Assembly: GCF_000403645.1 (NCBI RefSeq)
Contig: NC_021313.1
Location: 2,313,014 to 2,377,013 of the forward strand
DNA: 64,000 nt
DNA from: Salinarchaeum sp. Harcht-Bsk1
GTDB lineage: Archaea > Halobacteriota > Halobacteria > Halobacteriales > Salinarchaeaceae
Reading direction: 5' to 3'
In this document: piece after piece, positions 24,245 through 54,916 of the stretch
Layout of the letters: the number at the start of each line of letters is the position of its first letter
How positions within the stretch are numbered: the first letter of the stretch is position 1
Program-made: the position numbers and the translations under genes
The notes under the pieces: generated by a model
Databases searched by the model: none
What the model was told of the DNA's origin: nothing
What the model saw: the letters and a program-made list of their open reading frames with translations, nothing else

Positions 24245-26695
24245 ATGAACGAATCACGACGCAGCATACTACGCAAGGCATCGGCTCTGTCGGCGCTCGC
24301 GGTCGGCGCGAGCGCGACAGCATCGGCGGCGGACTGTAGTTCAGTATCGGACTGGCAAAACGACGTCTCCTACTCGAGCGGCGATCAGGTCCAGCACCCA
24401 GACACCGACGGTATCGAGTGTCTCTGGGAGGCGGCGCTCAACTCGCTGAACGCCGAACCGTCCCGTTCGAGCGCGTACTGGGACTACGTCGGCGACTGCG
24501 ACGGCAGCGGTGGCGGCAGCAACTCGGCACCGACCGCGTCGTTCACCACGAGCATCTCGAATCCGGCACCCGGCGAGGACGTCAGCTTCGACGGCAGCGG
24601 GTCGTCGGACTCCGACGGTTCGATCTCGTCGTACAGCTGGGACTTCGGCGACGGCTCGAGTGGCTCCGGCCAGTCGGTGACGCACAGCTACTCGTCGACG
24701 GGCGACTACACGGTGACGCTCACCGTCACGGACGACGACGGCGCGACCGACTCGGCGTCCCAGACCGTCTCGGTCACGAGCAGTTCGAACTCGGCACCGA
24801 GCGCGTCGTTCACGGTGTCGCCGTCCTCGCCGACGACCGGCGAGTCGACGACGTTCGACGCGGCGGACTCCTCGGACTCGGACGGCTCGATTTCGTCCTA
24901 CAGCTGGGAGTTTGGCGACGGCTCCTCCGGCAGCGGGCAGTCCGTCACGCACTCCTACAGCTCCACGGGCGACTACACGGTCACGCTGACGGTCACGGAC
25001 GACGACGGCGCGACGGACTCGAACGCCACGACGGTGACCGTCCAGTCCGACAGTGGTGGAGGCGGCGTGGACTGCTCCGGCGTCTCCGAGTGGCAGTCCG
25101 ACGTTGCGTACTCCGGCGGCGACCAGGTCACCTACGAGGGGGACCTGTTCACGGCGGAGTGGTGGACGAAGAACGACCCGCCGGACGACTCCAAAAACGT
25201 CTGGACGCTCGAGGGCTCCTGTAGCTCGAGTGGGGGCGGCAACTCCGACCCAGTCGCCTCCTTCACGAGCAGCCCGAGCTCACCGGATCCCGGAGAGCAG
25301 GTCGCCTTCGACGCGAGCGGCTCCAGCGACCCCGACGGAGACTCGCTGTCCTACAGCTGGGACTTCGGTGACGGTTCGAGTGGCTCGGGCCAGACCACTG
25401 GTCACACCTACTCCAGCGAGGGCGACTACACGGTCACGCTCACCGTCAGCGACGGCAACGGGGGCTCGTCCACCGACTCGACGACGCTCTCGGTCGCTAG
25501 CGGGGGCTCAACCGGTGGCAACCGCATCGTCGGTTACTGGATGCAGTGGGCGCAGTACGACCGCGACTACGTGCCCGCCGACATCCCGAAGGACCAGGTC
25601 ACGCACCTGCAGTACGCGTTCATGCGCCCCGAGTCCGACGGCACGATCTCCGGGCTCGGCGACTCGAGCGCACAGAAGTACCTGTTCCCGCAGTCCTGGC
25701 ACGACGTCACGAGCTTCGGCGACATCGCCTCGAACACCGACGTCACCTGCCTGATCTCGATCGGTGGCTGGAGCGACTCCGAGAACTTCTCCGACGTCGC
25801 CCTCGAGGAGTCGAGCCGACAGAAGTTCGCCGACGAGTGCGTGCGGATCGTCCGCGAGGCGGGCGTCGACGGCGTCGACATCGACTGGGAGTACCCAGGC
25901 GGTGGCGGCCACCCCGACAACACCGTTCGCGACGGCGACCAGGAACGCTTCACGCTACTGGTCCAGGCGGTTCGTGACGCCCTCGACGCCGCGGGCGCCG
26001 AGGACGGCAAGGACTACAAGCTGACCGCGGCGATGGTCTCCGGTGGATCGAAGGCCGAAGGGCTCGAGCACGGCACCCTCTCGGGCCTGTTCGACTTCGT
26101 CTCGATCATGACCTTCGACATGCGCGGTGGCTTCAGCGACTACACCGGCCACGCGTCGCCGATCTTCCAGAACCCGAACGATCCCTCGAGCAAGGCGTCG
26201 ACCTACAACGTCTCCTCGGGCGTGTCCTGGTACGTCGACAAGGGCTGGGACCCCGGCCAGCTGAACATCGCGACGCCGTTCTACGGCCGCAGCTTCTCCA
26301 GCGTCGAGGCACCCAGCGGCGACCTCGGGAACGGCACAGACGATGGCCTCTTCCAGAACTTCAGTGGCACGGGCGGGGGCTCCTTCCCGCCGGACACCGA
26401 GTCCAGTGGCATCTACGACTACTGGGACCTCTCGACGGTCGGCACCGCTCGCTCGACCAGTCAGGTCGACCTCTCGTCGTCGGACTGGACGACCAGCTAC
26501 GACGATACCGCAAAGGCGACCTGGAGCTACAACCAGACCGACTCGCTGATGATCAGCCATCCGACGCCCGATTCGGTCCAGCAACGGGCGAGCTGGCTGG
26601 CCAACAGCGACTACGGCGGCACGATGATCTGGGCGCTGTCACACGACACCGTCGAGCACCACCTGCTCGGCGAGCTCAGCAACGGCCTGCTCTAA
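24245..26695 (+). CDS. Secreted GH18 chitinase with CBM and PKD domains
   Basis: An 816-residue exported enzyme. The twin-arginine signal is SRRSILRKASALSALAVGAS. Domains in order: a CBM5/12-like chitin-binding module (about 29-85), two PKD domains (95-268), a second CBM5/12-like module (275-325), a third PKD (330-417) and the GH18 barrel (423-816). The catalytic DxxDxDxE is D542-GVDIDW-E549, with Glu549 as acid/base. It hydrolyses chitin outside the cell. Start 24245 is fixed by the Tat motif. A close paralogue follows, sharing the export and binding domains but with a different GH18 subtype. Confidence 0.93.
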   Translation: MNESRRSILRKASALSALAVGASATASAADCSSVSDWQNDVSYSSGDQVQHPDTDGIECLWEAALNSLNAEPSRSSAYWDYVGDCDGSGGGSNSAPTASFTTSISNPAPGEDVSFDGSGSSDSDGSISSYSWDFGDGSSGSGQSVTHSYSSTGDYTVTLTVTDDDGATDSASQTVSVTSSSNSAPSASFTVSPSSPTTGESTTFDAADSSDSDGSISSYSWEFGDGSSGSGQSVTHSYSSTGDYTVTLTVTDDDGATDSNATTVTVQSDSGGGGVDCSGVSEWQSDVAYSGGDQVTYEGDLFTAEWWTKNDPPDDSKNVWTLEGSCSSSGGGNSDPVASFTSSPSSPDPGEQVAFDASGSSDPDGDSLSYSWDFGDGSSGSGQTTGHTYSSEGDYTVTLTVSDGNGGSSTDSTTLSVASGGSTGGNRIVGYWMQWAQYDRDYVPADIPKDQVTHLQYAFMRPESDGTISGLGDSSAQKYLFPQSWHDVTSFGDIASNTDVTCLISIGGWSDSENFSDVALEESSRQKFADECVRIVREAGVDGVDIDWEYPGGGGHPDNTVRDGDQERFTLLVQAVRDALDAAGAEDGKDYKLTAAMVSGGSKAEGLEHGTLSGLFDFVSIMTFDMRGGFSDYTGHASPIFQNPNDPSSKASTYNVSSGVSWYVDKGWDPGQLNIATPFYGRSFSSVEAPSGDLGNGTDDGLFQNFSGTGGGSFPPDTESSGIYDYWDLSTVGTARSTSQVDLSSSDWTTSYDDTAKATWSYNQTDSLMISHPTPDSVQQRASWLANSDYGGTMIWALSHDTVEHHLLGELSNGLL

Positions 26696-52867: not shown

Positions 52868-52874
52868 TTTATAT
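52868..52874 (+). promoter_or_regulatory. TATA box of the histidine kinase gene
   Basis: TTTATAT is centred 27 nt before the GTG at 52898. This supports that start and a leaderless message. Confidence 0.65.
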
Positions 52875-52897
52875 CGGTTGCATCGCAACCTGAGGTA

Positions 52898-54916
52898 GTG
52901 ACATTCGCGCGAGGCTACCTCCAGGGGGAGCCGACAGTTCTCGTGGCCGCGGACGGAGCGGCCGCGCGGTCGATCCAAGCCGTCCTCGAGGCGTCGTTGT
53001 CCGGGTACCGAATCGCGAACGCCGACTCGATCGCAGCAGCGACGGACGGGCTCGACGAGGCGGTCAGCTGCGTCGTGACGCCGGGGACCCTTCCCGACGG
53101 TTCCGGCGTCGACCTCGCAGCCCGGATTGCCGATCGCGAGCGCTCGCCGCCCGTCGTGCTCGTCCCCCGAGAAATCGACGAGACCGTGGCACTCGCCACG
53201 ACGGACGGGGTCGCGGCGATCGTTCCTGCAGAACACGAGGACCGCCTCGCGGCCGCGGTCGACGACGTGGCGTCGTCGTATCTGGAGCGCTTCGGGAAGG
53301 AACTCCAGCTCGAGGCCGTCGAAACGATGTTCGGGGCGATCGAAGACGTCTTCCAGATCAAGGACGCCGACGGCCGCTACCTCCGGCTACTGAGCAACCG
53401 TGAGTGGCCGTCGGAATCCGACGCACTGGGCCGGACCGACCGGGTCCTGCACGACGACCAGTTCGGCGTGAACGAAACGTACTACGCCGAGGACCAGCAG
53501 GTACTCGACAGCGGCGACCCGATCCTGGGCGAGGTGACTGCCTACGGTGACGGGCCGCTGTTCTGGCTCGAAACGACGAAGGTTCCGCTCCGGGACGACG
53601 ACGGCACCGTTCGCGGTCTCGTGGGCCACGTTCGGGACGTCTCCGATCGGATGCAGGACCGCTCGGAACTCGAGCGCAAGAATCAGCGACTCGATCGCTT
53701 CGCCGGGTACGTGACCCACGACCTCCAGAATCCCCTCTCGATCGCGACGGGCTACCTCGAACTCGCCAAAGAGGGCGACGAGGAAGCGCTGGCCGCCGTG
53801 GAGGACGCCATCGAACGGATGCAACAGCTGATCGACGACATCGAGATCCTCGCACGCGGCGAACAACGGATGCTCCAGACGGGTGACGACGGGACGCTCG
53901 TGGCCGCCCAGCAGCACGTCGTGGAGATCGTCCGGAACGTCTGGTCGGTACTCGCCCCCGAAACGGCCACGCTCGAGATCGATCTCCCGGAGGGAACCGT
54001 CCTGTACGCTGGCGAGCAGGAGTTCCGTTCGATGCTCGAGAACCTCCTCAAGAACGCGCTCCAGCACGGTGGCGAGGACGTCACCGTCCGGATCGGACGG
54101 GTCTACGGCGGAATGTACGTCGAGGACGACGGTCCCGGCGTTCCCGTCGACGAGCGCGACGAGATCTTCGAACAGGGGTACTCGACGGCGAAAGGGGGTA
54201 CCGGGACCGGCCTGGCGATCGTCGACGAGGTCGCTACTGCTCACGAGTGGGACCTGGAGGTCGAGACGGGCACCGACGGCGGCGCGCGGTTCGTGATCGG
54301 CAACTGTCTCCTGATCACCGATCGCGATCACATCGCTGCACCTAGCGAGTCGATCGAACTTACCGAGCGAGCAGACGTCGGCGAACCGGGCACGCCTGGC
54401 CGATCTCACTTCGATCCGGACGACGAGACCTGGACGATAGAGAGTGCCGGCGAGGACATCTGGGGGTGGGAGAACGACTTCCACTTCGTACACGCCACGT
54501 GCTCGGGCGACGTCCGGATCGAGGCCCGTCTTCGGGACGCGCTCGACCGCAACGAGTTCTCGAAGACCGGTATCATGGTCAGGGACGATCTGGCCGAAGA
54601 CAGCGCACTCGGCTACGTCGGCCTGACGAGGGACACCCTCGAGGTGCTGTGGTGTTCCGAGGCCGGGGAACGCACCCGGAGTCAGCAGATCGGGGACACC
54701 GAAGGCCGCTACGACTGGCTCCGCCTCGATCGGGAGGGCGACCTCCTCACCGCGTTCGTCTCGGCGGACGGTGCGGAGTGGTTCCCGATCGATCAACGCC
54801 GGGTCGCCCTCGGGGAGACGGTCCACGCGGGGTTGGCCGTCTGTAGTGCCGTCCACCGCGACTCCTGCACTGCGACGTTCTCGGACGTGACCGTCCACAG
54901 GCTCACGTCGGAATGA
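52898..54916 (+). CDS. Histidine kinase with degenerate receiver and C-terminal DUF1349-like beta-sandwich
   Basis: A 672-residue protein, GTG start, no transmembrane helix. Domains: a receiver-like fold (about 10-125) whose phosphoacceptor position reads SCVVTPGTLPDGSG, with Thr instead of Asp; a PAS domain (about 140-255, VFQIKDADGRYLRLLSNREW); HisKA (H-box RFAGYVTHDLQNPLSIATGY); and HATPase (NLLKNALQHG, VEDDGPGVP, GGTGTGLAIVDE). Unusually, residues about 505-668 form a LamG/DUF1349-like beta-sandwich (FDPDDETWTIESAGEDIWGW; SKTGIMVRDDLAEDSALGYV; FVSADGAEWFPID), a domain normally found in exported carbohydrate-active proteins. No partner regulator is adjacent. Confidence 0.82.
   Translation: MTFARGYLQGEPTVLVAADGAAARSIQAVLEASLSGYRIANADSIAAATDGLDEAVSCVVTPGTLPDGSGVDLAARIADRERSPPVVLVPREIDETVALATTDGVAAIVPAEHEDRLAAAVDDVASSYLERFGKELQLEAVETMFGAIEDVFQIKDADGRYLRLLSNREWPSESDALGRTDRVLHDDQFGVNETYYAEDQQVLDSGDPILGEVTAYGDGPLFWLETTKVPLRDDDGTVRGLVGHVRDVSDRMQDRSELERKNQRLDRFAGYVTHDLQNPLSIATGYLELAKEGDEEALAAVEDAIERMQQLIDDIEILARGEQRMLQTGDDGTLVAAQQHVVEIVRNVWSVLAPETATLEIDLPEGTVLYAGEQEFRSMLENLLKNALQHGGEDVTVRIGRVYGGMYVEDDGPGVPVDERDEIFEQGYSTAKGGTGTGLAIVDEVATAHEWDLEVETGTDGGARFVIGNCLLITDRDHIAAPSESIELTERADVGEPGTPGRSHFDPDDETWTIESAGEDIWGWENDFHFVHATCSGDVRIEARLRDALDRNEFSKTGIMVRDDLAEDSALGYVGLTRDTLEVLWCSEAGERTRSQQIGDTEGRYDWLRLDREGDLLTAFVSADGAEWFPIDQRRVALGETVHAGLAVCSAVHRDSCTATFSDVTVHRLTSE

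Follow-up and report, generated by a model that had tools for sequence, protein, structure and literature searches.

A C-terminal DUF1349 beta-sandwich in a family of cytosolic haloarchaeal histidine kinases

Results

The kinase gene and its upstream region

The window that we analyzed is a stretch of 64,000 nucleotides from Salinarchaeum sp. HArcht-Bsk1, corresponding to bases 2313014-2377013 of a single 3,255,260-base contig. At 52898..54916 on the forward strand it contains an open reading frame that begins with a GTG start codon at 52898, ends with a stop at 54916 and encodes a 672 amino acid histidine kinase, in which reading of the frame and Pfam searches place REC-like, PAS, HisKA, HATPase_c and DUF1349 parts. 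The original prediction had called a gene with these same limits, and it is real.

A TATA-box-like sequence, TTTATAT (52868..52874, forward strand), lies ~27 bases 5' of the start codon and would form a leaderless-type promoter, its position being as expected of a leaderless haloarchaeal transcript. The GTG start is supported by AT-rich boxes at a similar distance upstream of the start codons of several relatives. A perfect inverted repeat, GGTTGC-ATC-GCAACC (52876-52890), separates the TATA-like box from the start codon; it was considered as an operator-like element and set aside, as it is absent upstream of the sister-species gene. Of the two genes that flank the kinase gene, the divergent one is presumably oligopeptidase-like and the convergent one glyoxalase-like.

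Domain order and kinase core

The protein begins with a receiver-like domain (residues 12-110, 52931..53227), followed by a PAS_4 domain (residues 148-251, 53339..53650; Pfam 42 bits), a HisKA dimerization domain (residues 265-323, 53690..53866; 46 bits), a HATPase_c domain (residues 374-467, 54017..54298; 65 bits), a linker between HATPase_c and the conserved sandwich (residues 468-486, 54299..54355) and a DUF1349 concanavalin-A-like beta-sandwich (residues ~487-670, 54356..54907), all on the forward strand, with the last identified by Pfam, AlphaFold, Foldseek and conservation. This order, from degenerate receiver to DUF1349, is the one that had been proposed originally, and Pfam and AlphaFold both bear it out. 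The kinase had also been described as soluble, and indeed it has no membrane segment and no N-terminal signal, with a maximum 19-residue hydropathy of 1.1.

Phospho-acceptor His274 is present within the sequence VTHDLQNPL, which contains the H-box THDLQNPL, and the ATP-binding boxes are all intact (N-box NLLKNA, G1 DDGPG, G2 GTGTGL), so that the kinase core of the window's copy is, judged by its motifs, intact. In the PAS_4 domain, residues K155 and G178-x-T180 are invariant across the 46 full-length relatives described below. The protein is not a hybrid histidine kinase, as its receiver-like domain is N-terminal and its C-terminal domain is all-beta. The full-length AlphaFold model has a mean pLDDT of 84.9 and a pTM of 0.56, and the latter value means that the relative placement of the domains is not fixed by this model.

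The N-terminal pseudo-receiver

The receiver-like domain adopts an alpha/beta fold in the model, but its Pfam match (Response_reg, residues 21-100) scores 25.4 bits, under the cut-off of 30.2. Alignment with relatives places Pro62 at the position of the phospho-accepting Asp, Ala18 in the acidic pocket and Pro110 at the position of the Lys, and thus none of the three features of a functional receiver is found in the window's copy, which, from these residues, cannot use standard phospho-Asp chemistry. The loss of the Asp had been predicted correctly, although the residue named at the time, Thr61, precedes the one that aligns. Asp is kept at the Pro62 column in 11 of the 46 relatives and Lys at position 110 in none, and a complete receiver phosphorylation site was found in no member of the 46-kinase family.

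The C-terminal beta-sandwich

DUF1349 (PF07081) matches residues 524-667 over profile positions 35-177 of 179, at 35.2 bits where the cut-off is 32.4, and this match is not due to chance, because 44 of the 46 full-length relatives match DUF1349 independently. Residues 481-670 are all-beta in the full-length AlphaFold model, mostly with pLDDT above 85, and when the C-terminal domain was modelled alone the pLDDT was 94.7 and the pTM 0.91. The sandwich that had been proposed to follow the ATPase core is therefore predicted with confidence. Its best Foldseek matches in the PDB are two solved DUF1349 proteins, 3O12 (yeast YJL217W) and 3MEP, with TM scores of 0.74-0.78 for most chains; next come the C-terminal sandwiches of GH43 beta-xylosidases, ERGIC-53, CBM66 and PRY/SPRY domains, the last including that of TRIM25 and being intracellular protein-binding domains. 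Searched against the PDB, the sandwich sequence alone gave no meaningful match, and a profile search gave 3O12 weakly. The yeast protein is named as a regulator of enolase. In the Salinarchaeum genome, the third sandwich kinase has an enolase-like gene (L080:10102-11301) ~2.5 kb away, most likely by coincidence.

The original prediction had also called the sandwich extracellular in type, and this held only in part. Its closest sequence relatives are indeed secreted DUF1349 domains, haloarchaeal and bacterial, including those of GH5-like enzymes, but DUF1349 also occurs in the cytosol and the closest solved fold is the yeast member. The Salinarchaeum genome itself encodes a stand-alone DUF1349 protein (L126:2511-3068, a 186-amino acid open frame with 219 bits to PF07081) that is related to 3MEP and 3O12 and has no signal and no membrane or other hydrophobic segment, and therefore the fold is not confined to the cell exterior. 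The kinase, for its part, has neither the signal peptide nor the anchor of a secreted or surface glycan-binding protein. A gammaproteobacterial surface-type protein of 2302 amino acids (L101:3-6908) has three DUF1349 domains amid fibronectin-like and PASTA-like stretches.

Conservation and selection

Kinase and secreted or bacterial DUF1349 domains have in common a set of fold-forming positions (G558, R562, W607, S622, D624, G625, W628 and G645). A second set, D520, D526, H529, D538 and K556, is near-invariant in secreted haloarchaeal and bacterial DUF1349 domains and relaxed in the kinases, whereas the kinases alone show strong conservation at D632, Q633, R634, E582, G575 and W512. Together with the shared W628, three of these make up a kinase-specific signature, W628-x3-D632-Q633-R634, and D632, Q633, R634 and E582 are largely fixed even in catalytically degenerate copies. 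The shift in conservation between secreted and kinase sandwiches looks like a changed binding surface, and with the residues of the secreted set relaxed and the kinase signature conserved, the sandwich need not bind glycans.

Pairwise Nei-Gojobori estimates per domain, in which dS is close to 1 in some comparisons and some comparisons rest on few changes, gave dN/dS values against the sister-species orthologue of 0.10 for PAS, 0.23 for HisKA, 0.36 for HATPase, 0.28 for the sandwich and 0.62 for the receiver, making the receiver the least constrained part. Most other pairs give ~0.1-0.5 for the sandwich, and it is usually the receiver that evolves fastest. By these ratios the sandwich is under purifying selection.

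Distribution and history of the family

A search of the Salinarchaeum genome with the C-terminal domain found three sandwich kinases, and the wider search for the same domain order across Halobacteria found at least 46 full-length kinases in at least 24 of 392 genomes and at least 10 of 86 genera, a lower bound, with no more than eight candidates scored per genome. Pfam matches among the 46 number 45 for HisKA, 45 for PAS_4, 44 for DUF1349 and 42 for HATPase_c. Carriers, for part of which the domain order was read, include Salinarchaeum laminariae, Natrialba swarupiae, Natronobiforma cellulositropha, Halosimplex species and a Halovivax. When 295 genomes of the phylum were searched with a combined HATPase and DUF1349 profile, matches covering both domains came from Halobacteria only, and bacterial matches in a contig scan were secreted enzymes or surface-type proteins.

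The possibility that the C-terminal part was joined to the kinase by a frameshift or an annotation artefact is ruled out by the 46 collinear full-length open reading frames without internal stops; we found nothing in its favor, and the three kinases of the same order in the Salinarchaeum genome and a collinear orthologue at the same locus in the sister species also speak against it. In an unrooted tree of 76 sandwich sequences, with limited sampling, the 46 kinase domains lie on one side of a branch (support 91/84), with nearly all secreted domains on the other, and in a similarly unrooted and sparsely sampled tree of kinase cores, comprising the 46 and 20 kinases without the sandwich, the 46 again lie on one side of a branch (96/94). 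Because both trees group the 46 together, the simplest reading is that the sandwich was acquired by a single fusion, followed by duplication and loss.

Degenerate paralogues

Comparison of the catalytic boxes indicated that several family members have lost catalytic residues. Four copies, the orthologous L081:5434, L085:7804 and L087:7566 together with L090:5517, have no His, no N-box Asn and no canonical ATP boxes, and yet retain the sandwich, with the signature or one close to it. An intact paralogue directly adjoins each of them, forming tandem pairs in two lineages (L081:5434-9415, L085:5778-9759, L087:5540-9524 and L090:5517-9802). The degenerate copies of the first three loci group with the neighboring intact copies in the trees and are therefore duplicates whose catalytic part has decayed. 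No such pair includes the kinase gene of the window. Close to their tandem pairs, L081 and L085, which are orthologous to L087, also have a PrkA-like serine kinase gene.

Genomic neighborhood

As had been predicted, no response regulator is adjacent to the kinase, which is therefore an orphan: the nearest of the genome's 14 Pfam receiver matches over cut-off is ~143 kb away, and HATPase_c matches number 37. When conserved neighbors were listed across the sandwich-kinase loci, no gene families were shared beyond local orthologous blocks and synteny, and no carbohydrate genes were consistently next to the sandwich kinases. The Salinarchaeum genome has three GH18 matches over cut-off, two outside the window and one within it, the latter a chitinase-type domain at 25523-26647 (G000:C1:2338536-2339660) in an 873-amino acid open frame. 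GH18 is present in 7 of 24 carrier genomes and 43 of 368 others (Fisher p = 0.022, kinship ignored), an association that we judged too weak to link the kinases to chitin use.

Discussion

In histidine kinases, input domains are almost always found before the catalytic core. A known case of a domain behind the core is the P5 domain of CheA, an SH3-like beta domain that follows the ATPase domain and couples the kinase to protein partners. The sandwich kinases resemble CheA in having a C-terminal beta domain behind a histidine-kinase ATPase domain, but the likeness is one of working and not of descent, since P5 has a different fold and belongs to another kinase class, and the sandwich kinase has no chemotaxis partners.

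The remainder of the protein is more conventional. An N-terminal receiver followed by PAS/GAF, HisKA and HATPase_c is also the arrangement of archaeal REC-HisK proteins (PMC5847659), which are likewise cytosolic, but the sandwich behind the ATPase domain sets the window kinase apart from them. The same survey, in which 62% of archaeal kinases are without membrane segments and phosphorylation may not occur in up to 40% of REC-HisK receivers, makes no mention of DUF1349 in its main text, and by its figures the absence of a membrane segment and the pseudo-receiver are ordinary among archaea (PMC5847659). The DUF1349 structures 3O12 (YJL217W) and 3MEP (ECA2234) have the same fold, with TM scores of 0.75-0.76, and belong over cut-off to the same Pfam family, PF07081, but are stand-alone proteins with identities of only 16-17%, and the D-Q-R signature is specific to the kinases. 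Secreted haloarchaeal DUF1349 proteins (e.g. L106-L125) share the GGGxDIW, KAGLMVR, DGxxW and GLAVxS motifs, though these have signal-like N-terminal segments or are long surface-type proteins and form a separate group in the tree. The occurrence of degenerate copies beside or among intact ones recalls the pseudo-histidine-kinases DivL (4Q20) and the pseudokinase version of ChrS (PMC9491836), with the difference that only some of the relatives are degenerate and the catalytic boxes of the window's copy are intact. A literature search found no relevant paper joining DUF1349 and a histidine kinase, and thus while the parts are known, their combination is undescribed in the literature searched.

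We tentatively propose that, in this cytosolic orphan HisKA kinase, the sandwich is tethered to the catalytic domain and serves there for docking or ligand binding, a reading that we rate as slightly less likely than not but above the alternatives. The PAS domain would be the main input, and the pseudo-receiver may be a weakly constrained dimerization or partner-binding part. On the C-terminus of the ATPase domain, an occupied sandwich could restrict or release the swing of that domain onto His274, which would set the balance between kinase and phosphatase activity, or it could place the kinase beside a partner; the phosphate would then be received by a response regulator whose gene lies elsewhere in the genome, unlinked to the kinase. 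Tuning of phosphorylation by the sandwich is plausible as a conjecture, and for what the sandwich binds we favor a protein partner over a glycan. Counting against docking are the full-length model's pTM of 0.56, which does not establish contact of the sandwich with the ATPase domain, the secreted best relatives, some of them glycan-active enzymes, which favor glycan binding, and the somewhat greater frequency of GH18 in carrier genomes.

These same observations could point instead to an intracellular sugar or oligosaccharide sensor, in which imported or metabolic glycans would gate a kinase controlling polysaccharide or sugar use. The fold matches to CBM66, ERGIC-53 and GH43 sandwiches fit such a sensor, as does its occurrence in an organism with three GH18 matches that grows on various sugars (PMC3715672). 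We nonetheless think it unlikely, as D520, D526, H529 and D538 of the secreted set are not conserved in the kinases, the GH18 association is weak and ignores kinship, and carbohydrate genes are not consistently adjacent. Slightly less probable still, the sandwich might be a structural or dimer-stabilizing appendage, for example against high salt, that provides no signalling input. Its C-terminal position, its retention in catalytically degenerate copies and a fold in common with GH43 accessory domains are consistent with this, but a family-specific conserved signature is not needed for the fold in the secreted relatives, and most of the haloarchaeal kinases found match up to the ATPase domain only and manage without a sandwich.

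A more far-reaching extension of the docking proposal, which we regard as improbable, is that this is a once-formed haloarchaeal family in which a secreted-type lectin-like domain was turned inward as the partner-binding module of a cytosolic kinase, with intact kinases working with neighboring pseudokinases, reduced to sandwich and sensory parts, as regulators. With a sandwich behind the ATPase domain that is conserved in 46 proteins, catalytically degenerate copies among them, these kinases provide a simple test system for the control of a kinase from its C-terminus, and DUF1349, a family of unknown function, gains a concrete intracellular setting in which its role can be tested.
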